Shown here one piece after another: positions 1,422 through 40,330 of a stretch of 64,000 bases of DNA. The DNA lies in NCBI GenBank assembly GCA_903875215.1, contig CAIQVH010000017.1, positions 1 to 64,000 on the forward strand, in the 5' to 3' direction. Source of the stretch: an uncultured Anaerolineae bacterium. Lineage in GTDB: Bacteria; Chloroflexota; Anaerolineae; Anaerolineales; Villigracilaceae. The stretch's first letter is position 1, and each line of letters begins with the position of its first letter. A program made the position numbers and the translations under genes. The notes under the pieces are model-generated. The model ran no database searches, was not told the DNA's origin, and saw nothing but the letters and a program-made list of their open reading frames with translations.

Positions 1422-3344
1422 TCAGGGCTGGCTGAAAGCCTGCAGGGTCTCCAAATAAGCTCCCGGGAGGCCGATGTCATAGTTTTGACCGTCCATTAGC
1501 AGGCCGAGAAAGCCCTGTTGCTGGCGCAGGCGCTCCAAAACCGGGGTGAGCTGGACTTCGCCTTGATCGCGGAGATTGTGATCAATTTGGTACTTAAGAA
1601 GGCCAAACAAGTCGGGCTTGAGGACATACTGGCCAAAAACGGTCAGATATTCACCTTCTGGCAGACCGGGAATGCGCAGGTTGGCGCGGGCGTAATCAGG
1701 CGTGGGCTTTTCGGCAAATTCGGTGATCGTCAGCAGGCGATCGGGGTCCTGCCAGAGGCCGGTTAATGTTCCGAAGTTGGCAATGTGCGCTTCGGGTGTT
1801 CGCCGCAGGCCAACCAGGCTGGTGCCATATTTCTCGTAAGCCTCCAGCAGTTGCCGGGCGCAGGAAGTCGAGCTGTTCGAACGGTAAATGTGGTCGCCAA
1901 GCATTAGCAGAAAGGGTTCATCTCCCACCGCCTGGGCGGCGCTGAAGACGGCGTGCCCGAAACCCTCCTGGCTGGTCTGAATCACATAGGTGAGATGGCG
2001 GCCGATTTCCAGCAAGCGGCGGGCGCAGGCCTGGAAGTTTTGCGGGAGTTTGTTGAAGTTTTCCGGGGGGAGTTGCGCGCTGAAAAAATCTTTGAAGTCT
2101 GCCAGGTCAGTGGGTTGTACAACCAGGATGACTTCTTCGATGCCAGCGTTCAGAGCTTCCTCCACGATCAGCAGGATGGCGGGCTTGGCAATTCCATCCC
2201 GATCGACGATCGGGAAAAATTCTTTCTTGGCGGCTTTGCTGGCCGGGAAAAGGCGCGTGCCAAACCCGGCAACCGGGATGACAGCTTTGCGCACTTTCTG
2301 CCGGGGAGCGAGGGTGAGCGGTAAGCCAGGGAGCTGCAATTCGCGCTCCAGGATTTCGAGCACCGCCTGCTGTGCTTCTGCGCTGCGACAGAGTAATTGT
2401 GCGGTGCCATCGCCCTGTGAGCCAACGCCTTTCCCGCCCCAGATGAGGGGCTGGAGCGGCCCATAGCCAAGCAGGCGATGCAAGGCCGGCGCGGTCAGCT
2501 CGCGCGGGCAGATGGGCGCTGCATAACGGTCAAACAGCTTCTGGGCTTCGGTCATCAGCGCGCCCAGGCGTTCAGGCTGACCGGTCTCCAGCGCCTCGAT
2601 GGCCTGGTGGACAATGCGCCGGTTGAGAGGGCCAAGCAGTTGATGCAGGCCGCGCGCCAGGTCGGTTTCGGCGTTGGGGTAGCAGTGATTCAGCTGGCGG
2701 AGGATCTCGCGGGTATCTTTCTGAGCCTGTAAATCGACCAGGACAAAGTGGAACGGGGCCCGGAGGTGCAGTTCGCGTGTCTCGAGCCGGTCGCCGTCGA
2801 AAGTCATCAGGACGGGCGTTTTGCCAAAGGCGCAGCCCTGATCCATGCGCCCGCAGAGCGAGGGCGTGGTAATTTCTCCCTGGTAGGCCAGTTCCATCTC
2901 GCCGCGCACGGTCAGTTTCAGGTCATAGAGGCGGTTGAAGGCGCGCGCGGCCAGGACGCAAATGGCAGCGCTGGAGGAGAGGCCTTTTTTAATCGGCAGA
3001 TCGGTCTGGTAGTTGTCGAGCACCAACCCGCGGACCTGATAATTGGTCTGCGCCTGGTAGGCCACCCCGGCAATGTAGCTCCAAAATCCGCCTTTCTGGG
3101 CTTCCTCGAGCAGGCGACCCGGCTCCATTGGGATTTCAACCGGCCCCAGGCGGGTGCCATCTGGCGCGGTGGCTGAAAGCACCAGCGCAGAGGGGTGCGT
3201 GGAGACTTCCGCGTACAGGCCCTGATCGGTGCCGGTGATGAGCGTCTGACCTGGCTCCAGCTGGGGGTTGATACGACGATAGCCACCCGCCCAGTCGGAG
3301 TGTTCGCCGACCAGGCAAATGCGGCCCGGAACAAAGAGTTGCAT
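1422..3344 (-). CDS. Bifunctional GHMP sugar kinase / UTP-sugar-1-phosphate uridylyltransferase
   Basis: A 640-aa two-domain fusion. Residues 1-345 are a GHMP kinase close to galactokinase: an N-terminal PGRICLVGEHSDWAGG sugar-binding motif (6-21), ATP loop KKGLSSSAA (119-127), the GRMDQ segment whose Asp168 matches the galactokinase catalytic base, and a C-terminal GGKGVGSQGDG motif (303-313). Residues 351-640 are a GalU-type nucleotidyltransferase with PVAGFGTRLFPASK, LMLGDH and FAEKP motifs. Such a protein should phosphorylate a free sugar at C1 and convert it to UDP-sugar, as FKP does for fucose with GTP. The exact sugar (galactose, arabinose or a uronate) cannot be read from sequence. 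It begins 26 nt after the lipoprotein gene, so is probably co-transcribed with it. Confidence 0.85.
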   Translation of the reverse strand: MQLFVPGRICLVGEHSDWAGGYRRINPQLEPGQTLITGTDQGLYAEVSTHPSALVLSATAPDGTRLGPVEIPMEPGRLLEEAQKGGFWSYIAGVAYQAQTNYQVRGLVLDNYQTDLPIKKGLSSSAAICVLAARAFNRLYDLKLTVRGEMELAYQGEITTPSLCGRMDQGCAFGKTPVLMTFDGDRLETRELHLRAPFHFVLVDLQAQKDTREILRQLNHCYPNAETDLARGLHQLLGPLNRRIVHQAIEALETGQPERLGALMTEAQKLFDRYAAPICPRELTAPALHRLLGYGPLQPLIWGGKGVGSQGDGTAQLLCRSAEAQQAVLEILERELQLPGLPLTLAPRQKVRKAVIPVAGFGTRLFPASKAAKKEFFPIVDRDGIAKPAILLIVEEALNAGIEEVILVVQPTDLADFKDFFSAQLPPENFNKLPQNFQACARRLLEIGRHLTYVIQTSQEGFGHAVFSAAQAVGDEPFLLMLGDHIYRSNSSTSCARQLLEAYEKYGTSLVGLRRTPEAHIANFGTLTGLWQDPDRLLTITEFAEKPTPDYARANLRIPGLPEGEYLTVFGQYVLKPDLFGLLKYQIDHNLRDQGEVQLTPVLERLRQQQGFLGLLMDGQNYDIGLPGAYLETLQAFSQP

Positions 3345-3370
3345 GAAAATCTTCCTGGGTAATTGGCGCG

Positions 3371-5425
3371 TTAAGGCTGCGCCGCAAAGATTTTAAGGCC
3401 CTCGCGTGAAACGGCGGCCAGATAACGTCCGTCCGGGCTGAAGGAGAGCCCGGTAACCGGGCTGTCAAAAGCCTGGAAGGTGGCGCTGGCGCTGAAATCG
3501 GGCGCGGTGACCACCACCGAGCCATCGGCCAGGGCCAGGGCCAGCAGGTCTTCACGAGCCGAGGTAACCATCTGGTTGATTTGCGCCGGGAGGGCAAGGC
3601 GCGCCACTTCGCTCAAGGTGTACTGCGGCGGTGCCATCAGGTTAAAAATCACCTGGTTTTTATCCAGGTCGCGCCGGAGCACCAGCAGGGTGCCATCCTT
3701 GCGCATCAACAGCGGAGGGTAGATAAAATCTATTGGTTCCCGCGCCAATGTGTTGCCGCTGGTCTTATCCACGATCGTAATGAGAAACGTGCGCGATTTT
3801 TGCTGGGTGGTGAACGCCATCCAATTCAGCGCTTCAGTAAAATTTTGGAAAGCGCCGCCCACCGATTCTTCGGGCAGGGTTTTGTTGCGGGCATATAGAT
3901 CGGTGCCCAGGCCTTTCAAATCGACCAGCACCCATTCGCCTTTGCGATCCAATGCGGCAATCTGGTAGGCGCCCACATCCAGCACGGTTTCACCCTGCCA
4001 GCTCTGCAGCTGGGTACGTTCGCCGGCAATTTCTCGGTAGGCAGTCGAATCGCTGCTGAACAGATCATGTTCAGGGTCTGTATTGCAGGTCAATTCCGCG
4101 CTGATGGTTTTCAGCCAGCAGACGGCGTGAGTGGTGTTGAGCAAAATCATCCCGTCGCTGATAAAGCGGAAGGCGCGCAGCTCGCCGATTTCCAGACCAT
4201 TGGTGCTATCGGCCAGAGGCAGAGGCAGGTTCCATTGCGGCGGAAGCGGTGACGGGGAGTCGGTTTCCAGCGTCTCCAGGCGGGTATTCTGACCGGATTG
4301 CGCGTCCCACTCTGCGATGGTGACTGTCGCCAGCGTATGCGTGCCATTCCAATCGACTCCCACGCCCTGGAGTGTGGTTCCGTTTAAGAAGGTGAGCGTC
4401 CACTCGCGTGCGCCGCCCGGCGGCTGGCTGATTTCGCGAAGCGCCTCAAGCGTCGCCAGCTGATAGACGCGCAGGCGGGTGCCGTAGGCTATTGCCAGCA
4501 GCGTGCCATCCGGCGAAATGGCCAGCGGCGTATCTTGCGCCGGAAGCAGCAAACTGTCCGACTGGCTCCAATCTTCGGTCTTGTAAAAAAGCAAATTGCG
4601 CCCTTCGCGCGCCAGAAACTGGCTGCCATCTGGCGTAAAGAGCAGATCACCCAGCGGGTGCGGACTGCTGAAGGCTTGCAGGCCGGTTTGCAGGTTAAAC
4701 ACCCGCAGCTCCGAAACACCAACCGAATACGCCAGGTACAGATCGTCGGGCGAAATAGCCACCTGAGCTTCGTTGATGGCGCCCAGAAATCCCGCTTGAA
4801 CCGGGAAAGCCAGCTTCGGAATTGCCCAGCCGCCATCCACCGCGTAGAGTTGCACCTGCCATTGCCCGGCCTGGCGTGTGGCCACGGCAAACCGGCTGCC
4901 ATCCAGGTTGACGGCCAGGCAGCGCTGGCATGGCTGGCTGATGGTAAAAATATCCAGCCAGTGCGCCAACTGGTTGCCAGACTGATCAAATACGAACAGG
5001 CCGTTGCTGGTGCTGACGAACAGTTTTTTTCCATCACGGCTGGAGACAGCCTGGCGTATCTGGGCGTGCATGGCCTGAAAAACCGGCTGCACCTGGGGCA
5101 GGGTATCCAGCGTCAGCGCAGAAAAGCCCATGTCCACCACCGGGGTGCCCGGCGCGGCAGGCAAAAACAGCCGCGGTGTCGGTGTCAGGCTGGGAGTCAC
5201 GGTCGGGCTGGGGGTGATGGTCGCAGTCAGCGTGGCGGTGAGAGTGGGTAAAATTGTCGGCGGCGGAGGAATGGTGACAGACGATTGGCCCGAAGGCTGC
5301 AGAGCAGATTCAGCAGGCGTTGAGGAAGAGCCAGTCAGCCCGGGCAGGGCGGGAAGCACGCTGCAAGCGGCCACCAGGATCAAAGCAACTGTACCAGTTA
5401 AAAACAAAGAAAGGAGCTTTTTCAT
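3371..5425 (-). CDS. Beta-propeller (WD40-like) surface lipoprotein
   Basis: A 684-aa predicted lipoprotein. The N-terminus has lysines, a hydrophobic stretch and a lipobox LVAAC at about residue 20. A Thr/Pro-rich linker follows (about residues 50-85), then a long region of WD40/YVTN-like blades with recurring ISPDG, FTPDG and FSPDG turns. The last blade (SFSPDGRYLAAVS) closes near the C-terminus. The second of two adjacent ATGs (5425) is preferred since GAGG lies 6 nt upstream; 5428 is the alternative. The gene starts 7 nt after the YHS gene and runs into the kinase fusion. It may be a protein-protein interaction or sensing scaffold on the outer face; the ligand is unknown. Confidence 0.8.
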   Translation of the reverse strand: MKKLLSLFLTGTVALILVAACSVLPALPGLTGSSSTPAESALQPSGQSSVTIPPPPTILPTLTATLTATITPSPTVTPSLTPTPRLFLPAAPGTPVVDMGFSALTLDTLPQVQPVFQAMHAQIRQAVSSRDGKKLFVSTSNGLFVFDQSGNQLAHWLDIFTISQPCQRCLAVNLDGSRFAVATRQAGQWQVQLYAVDGGWAIPKLAFPVQAGFLGAINEAQVAISPDDLYLAYSVGVSELRVFNLQTGLQAFSSPHPLGDLLFTPDGSQFLAREGRNLLFYKTEDWSQSDSLLLPAQDTPLAISPDGTLLAIAYGTRLRVYQLATLEALREISQPPGGAREWTLTFLNGTTLQGVGVDWNGTHTLATVTIAEWDAQSGQNTRLETLETDSPSPLPPQWNLPLPLADSTNGLEIGELRAFRFISDGMILLNTTHAVCWLKTISAELTCNTDPEHDLFSSDSTAYREIAGERTQLQSWQGETVLDVGAYQIAALDRKGEWVLVDLKGLGTDLYARNKTLPEESVGGAFQNFTEALNWMAFTTQQKSRTFLITIVDKTSGNTLAREPIDFIYPPLLMRKDGTLLVLRRDLDKNQVIFNLMAPPQYTLSEVARLALPAQINQMVTSAREDLLALALADGSVVVTAPDFSASATFQAFDSPVTGLSFSPDGRYLAAVSREGLKIFAAQP

Positions 5426-37075: not shown

Positions 37076-37477
37076 CTAGGGCAGCCAGCGGTTGCCAGGC
37101 AAAGTCGCCACACCGAGGAAAACCAGCAGCAGGGCGGCCAGGATGGCGATCAACCCGTTGCGATAGCGCTGACCATCGGGCAGTGTTTTCCACATCGAGG
37201 GCAGGTGCCCAACGATCACCGCCACCAGCATGGCGGAGAGATGCTCCCAACGATAGCGCAGGGCAAAACCGCCCGCCATGCCGCTCAGGATGAAGAAGAG
37301 CAGTCCAAGCAAGGCCTGGGTATCCATCAGCCCCGAAAAAGCAGACGCCAGGCCACGGGCGGCTTTATCATAGGCCTGCTGCTGGATCAGCCCCAGCGCA
37401 AAGCGCACCAGCGCGGCCAGCGCCACGACCACAATGGCCCAACGAACGATTGAATGAAGGGGTAGTAAAAGATTCAT
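37076..37477 (-). CDS. Four-TM membrane protein, unknown
   Basis: A 133-aa integral membrane protein with four hydrophobic helices (about 5-30, 50-70, 78-95, 105-125) and a conserved His in the first (LHSIVRW) and others in HLSAM and GHLPSMW, which might ligate haem as in small cytochrome b-like proteins. I do not recognise it with certainty. The gap to the MFS gene is 15 nt and to the upstream gene 9 nt. Confidence 0.65.
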   Translation of the reverse strand: MNLLLPLHSIVRWAIVVVALAALVRFALGLIQQQAYDKAARGLASAFSGLMDTQALLGLLFFILSGMAGGFALRYRWEHLSAMLVAVIVGHLPSMWKTLPDGQRYRNGLIAILAALLLVFLGVATLPGNRWLP

Positions 37478-37486
37478 TTTTTCTCC

Positions 37487-38485
37487 TTACCAGTGTTTTT
37501 TTTCCGTCTCCCAATCCTTAACGCGCTCAAACAACTCAGGCAGTGGGCGCAAATCGGCCACGGGGACGGAAAAATTCTTAATTTGGGTCTTGCTGTATTG
37601 AAACACCCGGCTGCCGGCATGGATGGCGCTGGCCTTACGACGGAATTCCTCGTGCGCCAGGTAACCTGTCAGCCAGATTTCCATCCCATAAATCCAGATG
37701 TTCCCCCATTCATGCGGCTGAATCAGGTACAGATCGCCCATGCGCGGGCAATGCAGGCCAATGCGCGCCTCCGGGATGGCATCCACATGCACATAGGCCA
37801 GGCTGTAAAAGGTCTGCGACGCAAAAACGCGCGTCAGCGGAGCCAGAGTCAGCCGCTCGGTGATGAAATTACGCTCAGAATCCTGCCCGCCAATTTCCAC
37901 CGTGACCGGGCGGGCGCACTCGCTCTTCAACGCCAGGCGCCCCAACGCTTCCCAGGCTGCCGGGCGTGACCATTCAGCGCGCAGGGGATGAATCAAATGG
38001 ATGGGCTGATCTGCATCAACCGCTTTTTGAATTTCTTCGGGTGAATTGGTCGTCAGGCCGAGTAAGAATGCAAACAGGTAGAGATCCCGGTCGGTGTGGT
38101 TGGCAGCCTCGAACTGGTCTTCCGGAATCAGCGCCGGCGCGTGCAGCACCAGCCCCGGGTTGCGACGCATGGCCGTAATCTGATTTCGCTTCGAGATGAC
38201 AAACGTCTTTAAGTCACAGCGATGATTGCCCAGCGCCACATCATAGCGATCCGGCTCGGTGAACGGGGTGGCGCCCTTAACATCATAAGGAACCGCCTGC
38301 TCGCCCAGGTAACGTCGCAACGCCAGCTCCACCGCCACCCCGCCGACAATGCGCCGCAAACGCGAATAAAGCGAACCGCCCATGCGGTCATAAGTGTACG
38401 GCAGCGAACGCGAGGCATACAAAATGCCGCTCGTGGTCAGATCGGGCGAAAAAGGGAGCTTGATGAAATCCGAAGCAGAGATCAT
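37487..38485 (-). CDS. Putative restriction endonuclease (PD-(D/E)xK-like)
   Basis: A 332-aa protein with no family I can name. A pattern typical of PD-(D/E)xK nucleases is visible: a helix with Glu53 (GGVAVELALRRYL), then Pro78-Asp79 and Asp82, then nine residues later Asp91-Leu-Lys93 (CDLKTF). The C-terminal half contains Gly-Asp-Leu-Tyr and many aromatic residues that could recognise DNA. The upstream gene, 11 nt away, is a DNA methyltransferase, so this is probably the restriction partner. The nuclease identity is inference. Confidence 0.6.
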   Translation of the reverse strand: MISASDFIKLPFSPDLTTSGILYASRSLPYTYDRMGGSLYSRLRRIVGGVAVELALRRYLGEQAVPYDVKGATPFTEPDRYDVALGNHRCDLKTFVISKRNQITAMRRNPGLVLHAPALIPEDQFEAANHTDRDLYLFAFLLGLTTNSPEEIQKAVDADQPIHLIHPLRAEWSRPAAWEALGRLALKSECARPVTVEIGGQDSERNFITERLTLAPLTRVFASQTFYSLAYVHVDAIPEARIGLHCPRMGDLYLIQPHEWGNIWIYGMEIWLTGYLAHEEFRRKASAIHAGSRVFQYSKTQIKNFSVPVADLRPLPELFERVKDWETEKKHW

Positions 38486-38496
38486 AGGCGCTCAAA

Positions 38497-39309
38497 TCAC
38501 TCATTCCGAAACTGCAGGCAATAATGATGAAAAGTATTGCTGACCCAGGCGCTGCCCAGCCCAAAAGGCGCCAGCGGCTGGTTATCCTGCATCCAGATTT
38601 TCTCATCCTTCAGGGTATACACCTTGCCCAACTCGCGCGCCAAATCCCAGGCCAGCGGATAGATTCTACCGCCCTTTTTAACGTTTTTCACAATAATTGT
38701 CAGGTAAGCCTGCTCGCGCAGCAGCGGCTTGAGACCGGCGTAAATCTGCACCAGCAGCGCCAAAAACGCCTCGTAATCATGCACATTTCCCAAATCATGC
38801 GGATGATCGGAATACACCACATCCAGCCCGCTCGCGGCGCGGCGCTTTTGCTGATTTTCAGCCCCTTTGGCGTGCAGCATATCCCAATACGGCGGCGACG
38901 TGAGAACATAATCCACCGTTGGGATGGGATACTCCAACGCCAGCGCCGCATCGCCCTGAATCACCTGCGCCACCAACCCCGCCGAATCCGGGCTGGCCGC
39001 CAAACGCGCCTGCTCCTGGCTGATAATTTCCTGCGCGATCCCGGCATAACGGGCATTTAATTCGATGCCATAAGAGTTTCGTCCGGCCCGCAGCGCCGCC
39101 ACCAGCGTCGAACCGGTGCCGGCCATCGGGTCGAGCACTGTCTGCCCGCGCTTGGTAAAGAACTCAATAAACTCCTGCGCCATCGTCTCTGGGAATTTGG
39201 CCGGGTGCACCAGCACATCCTTCTTGCGCGGCGGCGGGTTGTGAATGAACCATGATTTCTGGAACTTCAGCCAGGTTTTCGGGTCGAGATCGTTCAGTTT
39301 GTTTTTCAA
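38497..39309 (-). CDS. Site-specific DNA methyltransferase (N4-C/N6-A)
   Basis: A 270-aa SAM-dependent DNA methylase. The SAM pocket motif DPMAGTGST lies at residues 60-68 and the catalytic TSPPYWD at 137-143, so the order is X-I-IV. The late QDNQPLAPFGLGSAWVSN is the probable target recognition part. The only in-frame start is TTG at 39309, because a stop codon lies two codons upstream; no strong Shine-Dalgarno is seen. It starts 13 nt after the lipoprotein stop and ends 11 nt before the putative endonuclease. Confidence 0.9.
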   Translation of the reverse strand: MKNKLNDLDPKTWLKFQKSWFIHNPPPRKKDVLVHPAKFPETMAQEFIEFFTKRGQTVLDPMAGTGSTLVAALRAGRNSYGIELNARYAGIAQEIISQEQARLAASPDSAGLVAQVIQGDAALALEYPIPTVDYVLTSPPYWDMLHAKGAENQQKRRAASGLDVVYSDHPHDLGNVHDYEAFLALLVQIYAGLKPLLREQAYLTIIVKNVKKGGRIYPLAWDLARELGKVYTLKDEKIWMQDNQPLAPFGLGSAWVSNTFHHYCLQFRNE

Positions 39310-39322
39310 GGGTCAGGTTCCA

Positions 39323-40180
39323 TCAGGGAGTGGGACGCGGCGTGCGGCTAGGCAGCGGGGTGCGGCTGGCTGTCGCTGTCGGCGTGGGCGAAAGGTACGA
39401 GACAGCATGGACGCGCAAATCAGAAAAACTGATGTTCAACCCTTCCGGGCTGAGAACGTTGGCAAAAACCCCCAGCCCGCCGCTCCTGAACATTGGGTCC
39501 AACAATGCGAACTGAAAATGCCCATTCAAAAAAAAGCGCATTTCCACGCCCGCCACCCAGAGTCCGAGCCGCACTTGTCCGGGCGCGCCAGACGGCAGAT
39601 CGCCGCTGGGCTCAAAGTCTGAAAGCGGGTACACCTCCCCGCTGCGCAGGCGGTCAACCCGCTGCTGGCCATCACAGGTCAGCACATAGCGATAGGCGTA
39701 GGCTTCGCTGCCGGCATGATAGAGCAGGCCAAAAGAATCTTTGGCGCCGCAGCGGTGAATATCCAGGGTGGTTTCGGCAAAGAAATCCGTCAGGATCAGG
39801 CCTCCGCGCAAACTGCTGAGCGTGACCGGCGATTGGTTCGCTGCCAGAGTCAGGCGGTTGGCGCTGACGAGGATGTTGTTTGCGCCCTGGCTGGCCGCGC
39901 TGGCGTTCGTCCAATCTGCGGGGGAGGAGAAATCCTCGCTGAAAAGCTGTGCGCCCAGACCCGGCAGAGTTGCGGGGGTGGCGCTGGGCAGTGTGGTGGG
40001 CTGCGGGGTGTGGGTGGCCGTCGGGGGGAACCAGAGAATGGTGGCAGTGGCGGTTAATGGCGGGGTAACGGAAGCCGGAGTCGGTGGAGCGGGTGTGCTG
40101 GGCGGCAGGCAGGCAGAGTTGGCGAGCAGGGTCAGGCCCAGAGCAACAACGAAGAGTTTATTCAAATCCAATGGCTTCAC
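39323..40180 (-). CDS. Lipoprotein with LamG-like domain and Thr/Pro linkers
   Basis: A 285-aa predicted lipoprotein. A hydrophobic N-terminus ends at a Cys near residue 24 (LLANSAC, an imperfect lipobox), then a Thr/Pro-rich linker (about 25-75). A concanavalin-like jelly-roll domain (80-260; LFSEDFSSPADW, SFGLLYHAGSEAYAYRY) follows, then a second Thr/Pro tail at the end. The GTG at 40180 is chosen over the upstream frame because the signal peptide begins there. TAGAAT (complement of 40189-40194) lies 8 nt upstream with no Shine-Dalgarno. Function is probably carbohydrate or surface binding. Confidence 0.7.
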   Translation of the reverse strand: MKPLDLNKLFVVALGLTLLANSACLPPSTPAPPTPASVTPPLTATATILWFPPTATHTPQPTTLPSATPATLPGLGAQLFSEDFSSPADWTNASAASQGANNILVSANRLTLAANQSPVTLSSLRGGLILTDFFAETTLDIHRCGAKDSFGLLYHAGSEAYAYRYVLTCDGQQRVDRLRSGEVYPLSDFEPSGDLPSGAPGQVRLGLWVAGVEMRFFLNGHFQFALLDPMFRSGGLGVFANVLSPEGLNISFSDLRVHAVSYLSPTPTATASRTPLPSRTPRPTP

Positions 40181-40330
40181 AGGGCTGGATTCTACCCGAA
40201 AAACGGTGGCGCGCCGGGAACGGGTTATCGGGTGAGTTTCTTCCGCTTTTTTTTGTGCCAAATGGGGAATGCGGTCGGCGGCGGGGTATTGTACAATTGG
40301 AAGAACTATACTTGCGGTCAAGGAGCAACT

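Follow-up and report, generated by a model that had tools for sequence, protein, structure and literature searches.

A candidate type II restriction-modification pair, probably for GCWGC, in an Anaerolineae genome

Genes at the locus and their predicted products

The DNA analysed here (the window) is a stretch of 64,000 nucleotides from the 3.77 Mb genome of an uncultured Anaerolineae bacterium. On its minus strand, an open reading frame whose product by eye looks secreted or lipoprotein-like (39323-40321), a DNA methylase gene (38497-39309) and a gene for a 332-aa protein (37487-38485) follow one another, separated by 13 and 11 nt. A preliminary description of this DNA had proposed the last two as a candidate restriction-modification pair, and our analyses confirmed both reading frames, one of 332 aa starting with ATG and one of 270 aa starting with TTG, 11 nt apart. 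All nine named relatives at the locus come from Chloroflexota metagenome-assembled genomes (MAGs), five of which bear Anaerolineales or Anaerolinea in their titles. The features are as follows:

37487..38485, minus strand: candidate type II endonuclease, 332 aa, with a predicted PD-(D/E)xK layout and of an unlisted family (open reading frame, homologues, model)
38327..38329, minus strand: codon of Glu53, on N-terminal helix 39-62 (alignment, model)
38240..38242, minus strand: codon of Asp82, at the start of strand 82-85 (alignment, model)
38207..38215, minus strand: codons of Asp91-x-Lys93, on strand 88-97 (alignment, model)
37712..38002, minus strand: beta-sandwich-like insert in the nuclease, residues 162-258, which takes most of the listed local fold matches
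37574..37600, minus strand: residues 296-304 (Q296, Y297, T300, N304), candidate DNA-recognition loop, a role suggested by conservation
38497..39309, minus strand: DNA methyltransferase of the N6_N4_Mtase family, 270 aa, forced TTG start (PF01555, E 5.3e-23)
39106..39132, minus strand: SAM-binding motif DPMAGTGST, residues 60-68 (sequence)
38881..38901, minus strand: catalytic motif TSPPYWD, residues 137-143 (sequence)
39323..40321, minus strand: upstream open reading frame, by eye secreted or lipoprotein-like, 13 nt ahead of the methylase gene; its start codon is uncertain

A candidate endonuclease and a methyltransferase are encoded together in the window, as in type II systems, and Pfam searches of adjacent genes, which covered part of the neighbours, revealed no helicase or specificity subunit. 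The product of 39323-40321 gave no match in a Pfam search; its family has members in 53 of the 80 compared loci, as a rule placed ahead of the methylase or nuclease gene. The nuclease gene is followed after 9 nt, on the same strand, by 37076-37477, which encodes a 133-aa protein that by eye is probably a membrane protein and that had no significant match in a Pfam search.

Both methylase motifs that had been reported from the sequence, DPMAGTGST and TSPPYWD, are present, and the TTG start is indeed forced, because an in-frame TGA lies two codons upstream. The protein matched PF01555 (N6_N4_Mtase) with 82.6 bits against a curated cut-off of 26.7. The best stretch aligned methylase residues 15-94 with profile positions 139-221, so that the SAM motif comes ahead of the catalytic one. 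The opposite motif order was found in all six SPPY-type enzymes that our own motif scan picked from 20 PF01555 loci in six other genomes of the order. The SPPY motif is typical of m4C enzymes, and we take the TSPPYWD of the window methylase to be of the m4C type.

Glu53, Asp82, Asp91 and Lys93 of the 332-aa protein stand at the positions claimed for them. The four residues are identical in this protein and nine near relatives, which are 56-75% identical overall, and the quartet is therefore beyond chance; it comprises the conserved Glu, Asp and (D/E)-x-K of the PD-(D/E)xK superfamily. That the protein carries no other family signature also held: it matched no family at E<=10 in Pfam, NCBIfam or PADLOC and none at E<=0.1 in PHROGs, and had no credible sequence match in the PDB. 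Pfam searches of 31 nuclease relatives gave only five weak families, each in a single member and none of them EcoRV. A literature search, with subscription papers and REBASE outside its scope, found no description of this pair. The nuclease sequence family is thus absent from the protein libraries searched. The preliminary description had gone further and suggested, should the partner be a nuclease, an unrecognised endonuclease fold family; the sequence family is indeed unlisted, but the predicted fold belongs to the known PD-(D/E)xK class.

That fold was predicted with AlphaFold, for which the best of five models of the full-length protein reached a mean pLDDT of 81.8 with 10 sequences, the other four reaching 48-63. 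This best model has the PD-(D/E)xK layout at the residues named above, with an alpha-beta core that places Glu53 on helix 39-62, Asp82 at strand 82-85, and Asp91 and Lys93 on strand 88-97. Residues 1-165 modelled alone did not fold (pLDDT 41). In the full model, segment 162-258 looks like a beta-sandwich insertion. A Foldseek search of predicted viral proteins gave five matches at E<=0.001 (E 3.6e-6 to 6.7e-4). The second-ranked match is named "Restriction endonuclease" (E 5.7e-5, probability 1.00, target-normalised TM score 0.72), and rank 11 is also named restriction endonuclease (E 3.0e-3, target-normalised TM score 0.73). These phage proteins (BFVD A0A6J5NRJ2 and A0A6J7XSJ9) resemble the window protein in fold, with a Foldseek probability of 1.00 and target TM scores of 0.72-0.73, but are only 172 and 159 aa long and 9-10% identical to it. 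The predicted layout and the matches to these phage models support the restriction-modification reading.

Foldseek searches of the full model against the PDB gave nothing at E<=0.001, and the top matches were mostly local or poorly superposed. Among 50 listed VIA-align matches were three entries of EcoRV, a type IIP PD-(D/E)xK enzyme (PDB 2ge5, 1stx, 1eon), with Z scores of 4.2-4.6 and 139-150 aligned residues over model residues 6-314. Within that list they were the sole matches to span the whole model and EcoRV was the sole nuclease. EcoRV also has a Glu-Asp-Asp-x-Lys set. The two proteins differ in that no sequence similarity was found between them and that the beta-sandwich at 162-258 is peculiar to the window protein, and the Z scores are too low for kinship; the partner methylase of EcoRV is presumably of a different class from the window methylase.

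GCWGC as the probable target site

The reading we favour, at a probability of roughly 0.7, is that the two genes form a type II restriction-modification pair whose target is probably GCWGC. Its computed basis is gene order, sequence motifs, the predicted fold, co-conservation, and a depletion of sites in the window's family that is linked to the nuclease. We infer cleavage, methylation, a shared target and defence as the purpose: the methylase would probably put an N4-methyl group on cytosine at GCWGC, and the 332-aa PD-(D/E)xK endonuclease would cut the same site when unmodified and thereby restrict incoming DNA. That the 332-aa protein is the endonuclease of such a pair is very likely; given such a pair, GCWGC is its probable target.

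GCWGC was tested here because it had been named beforehand by independent methylome work. That report describes, for Anaerolineales CL500-11 MAGs, methylation at GANTC, at TTAA and, as m4C, at GCWGC (PMC6329791). For M.AbaBS3I (EMGBS3_12600), the m4C GCWGC methylase of CL500-11, the best identity in REBASE was 22.9%; in E. coli the enzyme gave plasmids protection from TseI, and no restriction system is listed beside it (PMC6329791). M.AbaBS3I resembles the window methylase in its order, by lineage name, and in its m4C type, and its motif is depleted in pair-bearing genomes of the window's family; it differs in being listed there without a restriction system, and orthology between the two is a guess. 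If the target is GCWGC, the 332-aa protein belongs to a candidate partner family for a published m4C methylase that is listed with none (PMC6329791). GCWGC, the target proposed here, is also that of ApeKI and M.ApeKI of Aeropyrum pernix (PMC8557920); M.ApeKI methylates C-5, whereas the window methylase is of the N6_N4_Mtase family.

Depletion was measured in 8.5-263 kb from each of 46 genomes and in six further loci from outside the window's family, with an observed/expected ratio below 0.8 as the threshold. Across 262.9 kb of the genome that contains the window, GCWGC stood at 0.79 and GCSGC at 0.99 of expectation. GCWGC fell below the threshold in all 14 sampled genomes with an intact pair, all of the window's family, and in none of the eight that have the methylase but lack an intact nuclease; the two groups did not overlap. 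In this contrast GCWGC ranked first of 94 palindromic motifs (p 3.1e-6), as it did in all four contrasts of the sample. The ratio was also below 0.8 in 10 of 11 genomes with an intact nuclease and no close methylase (all of the genus designated g2), in four of six with a broken nuclease and no methylase, in two of seven with neither gene, and in three of the six non-family loci with an intact pair. An earlier run over 99 motifs, which included extra 5-9 kb pieces and filed G117, whose methylase lies on another contig, as lacking a methylase, placed GCWGC first or second in five of seven contrasts, 11th for nuclease without methylase against neither gene and, as expected, 91st for methylase only against neither.

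A first alternative is that the genes form the same kind of pair with another target, for example AGCT, and that the GCWGC signal reflects lineage history or another restriction system. AGCT, ATCGAT and CCWGG are depleted as well, and AGCT was below 0.8 in all 14 of the pair-bearing family genomes; however, AGCT was also low in four of the eight methylase genomes without an intact nuclease, where GCWGC was not. The control GCSGC remained near expectation (0.87-1.02) in the 14 pair genomes. Counts over whole genomes (80 genomes) point both ways. Seventeen family genomes with an intact pair had a median GCAGCA/CCAGCA ratio of 0.55, compared with 0.83 for 22 genomes that carry the methylase but no intact nuclease (p 1.3e-5); as a group, however, 17 non-family genomes with an intact pair showed no depletion (p 0.32). 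One of the non-family genomes with an intact pair, G023, is nearly purged, with 40 GCAGCA against 4711 CCAGCA. A further genome, G003, in which neither gene was detected, is strongly depleted (550 GCAGCA against 7133 CCAGCA), so something else in the order must also deplete GCWGC. Moreover, the depletion classes differ in taxonomy, and ancestry therefore confounds these tests. The first rank of GCWGC, the clean split between the 14 and 8 genomes and the naming of the motif in advance argue against a different target, which we consider fairly unlikely, and for a pair directed at GCWGC.

Several other short motifs were rare in these genomes. GGCC occurred at 0.02-0.06 of expectation in G062, G111, G103 and G566, all of the window's family, pointing to a second, strong restriction pressure there. 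In the 262.9 kb of the window's genome, GGWCC stood at 0.33 of expectation, below GCWGC, which suggests another active or recent restriction system. CTAG was considered as the specificity of the methylase and set aside: it was absent, against 58 copies expected, from G040, which has neither gene, and its rarity is thus uninformative here.

Nucleases without a methylase

Among 201 genomes of the order, the nuclease was found in 81 (family matches at E<=0.001, a few of them weak and partial) and the methylase in 85 (E<=1e-50), with both in 46. Integrity of the quartet was scored in an unselected alignment of 129 nuclease rows, of which 112 were counted; the 17 dropped were nine from named records without a whole-genome search and eight with an incomplete N-terminal region. 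The quartet E-D-[DE]-K was intact in 38 of 48 rows with a methylase in the genome and in 26 of 64 without, a label that rests on incomplete assemblies, six further such rows having less than 900 nt of upstream sequence. Here G144 was counted with a methylase, as its contig ends inside a 119-bit methylase fragment beside the nuclease; before it was moved, the counts were 37 of 47 and 27 of 65. Outside the window's family, the quartet was intact in 19 of 28 rows with a methylase and in none of 21 without (18 of 27 and 1 of 22 before the move, G144 being the sole exception). With ancestry ignored, Fisher tests gave 5e-5 overall and 5e-7 outside the family (1e-4 and 6e-6 before the move). In the window's family minus genus g2, the quartet was intact in 14 of 14 rows with a methylase; within g2 it was intact in five of six with and 26 of 43 without (p 0.39). 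A tree-based test was not significant, with five well-supported independent pairs (nine in all). On average 1.7 pairs changed in the same direction, 0.4 in the opposite direction and 2.9 showed no difference (quick tree, G144 as without methylase). The tree carries only about nine changes of methylase state and about ten of quartet state, too few for significance. Thus, methylase and quartet are strongly associated at a distance and weakly within g2, and the association is not safe from the effect of ancestry.

Selection on the nuclease was estimated by the Nei-Gojobori method with a script of our own. Ratios of dN/dS were 0.07-0.16 in eight pairs with a methylase, 0.09-0.18 in eight intact pairs without one, 0.10-0.33 in 11 broken pairs (in G147-G026, both nucleases are broken) and 0.21 in one mixed pair (G146-G596). 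Judged by these codon comparisons, nucleases without a methylase, broken ones included, remain under purifying selection. Conservation of W260, N262, W264, G267, G274, L312 and P314 reaches 85-100% in 27 distant broken homologues; the positions conserved there at 80% include neither the quartet nor Q296, Y297, T300 or N304. The latter four are 98-100% conserved in 43 methylase-bearing rows, which were selected for an intact quartet, so the identity of the quartet in them is not counted as evidence. From these patterns we infer that the broken homologues have probably retained the fold and lost the cutting and recognition surface.

Such conservation raises a second alternative, that restriction is not the main role of the protein, which has another conserved function, nuclease activity with a methylase being an optional state. 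Besides the constraint on broken copies, with dN/dS of 0.10-0.33 against 0.07-0.18 for intact pairs, and their conserved positions, this is favoured by the 35 of 81 nuclease genomes that lack a methylase at E<=1e-50, G144 with its fragment among them. Yet outside the family no quartet is kept where the methylase is missing, and within the family site depletion follows the nuclease. We regard another primary function as unlikely and retain the restriction-modification pair as the preferred reading.

Genus g2 bears most directly on how a nuclease of such a pair could persist alone, as 51 of its 57 genomes carry the nuclease and only six a close methylase. The 26 intact g2 nucleases, of 43 without a close methylase, are what a self-toxic enzyme should forbid unless other protection exists. 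These genomes may survive through another methylase, a silenced gene or purged sites. PF01555 matches numbered 2-8 in each of six searched genomes, and C5-methylase matches were found in 5 of 10 genomes.

Two sister genomes, G146 and G596 (loci L046, L236 and L167), are almost free of GCAGCA, with 22 and 15 copies in 3.2 and 2.7 Mb. They contain 3840 and 3884 copies of GCGGCA, and G146 has 2992 copies of CCAGCA against its 22 of GCAGCA. Neither has a relative of the window methylase at E<=1e-50. They share one C5-methylase, which might belong to another GCWGC system. Such genomes invite the idea of a restriction locus turned family core genome, in which the endonuclease outlives its methylase, as in purged G146, where it is intact, and self would be told from non-self by an absent word and not by methylation, a dead enzyme being kept elsewhere for a new task. 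We find this quite doubtful. The quartet of purged G596 is broken (EADR), and the nearby G584, with EDEK and no close methylase, is not purged (3713 GCAGCA); together with the shared C5-methylase, these observations weaken the absent-word explanation for G146.

Distribution and chromosomal setting

A methylase beside a chance neighbour with no common function is highly improbable: many of the 201 genomes hold one gene only (39 the methylase, 35 the nuclease, counting G144), but the reading frames lie at most 150 nt apart in 38 of the 46 genomes with both, and the two co-occur above chance (Fisher p 0.0008, ancestry uncorrected). In the window's own family, the nuclease was found in 25 of the 26 genomes listed and was missing in G194. 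A draw of 400 genomes of the phylum gave 24 nucleases, all in the window's family, with other members of the order in the draw uncounted. Recurrent neighbours in the compared loci include an epimerase, PurA, SSB, DUF3467, NAD kinase and a translin-like protein, the last just under the cut-off, and for this reason we read the setting as a chromosomal housekeeping neighbourhood and not an island. Many members of the order thus carry the nuclease family at a like chromosomal site, in some cases without the methylase or with the active site broken. The pair has the look of an old locus bound to its clade, not of an accessory system with patchy occurrence.

Restriction-modification genes are commonly regarded as mobile and patchy, with the endonuclease lost first. 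Here, much of an order shares an unlisted family of candidate endonucleases in a housekeeping neighbourhood, and purifying selection on it appears to persist after loss of the methylase and even of the active site.

A mobile-element origin was set aside, as a pattern-based scan of viral contigs and a tblastn search of 72,556 plasmid records (E<=0.01) gave no relative of the nuclease; a collection of phage records was queried with the methylase only. The best plasmid relative of the methylase is archaeal, encoded at 2911-3795 of a Haloferax lucentense plasmid (L280) with 45.7% identity, and stands before a gene for an ATP-dependent helicase.
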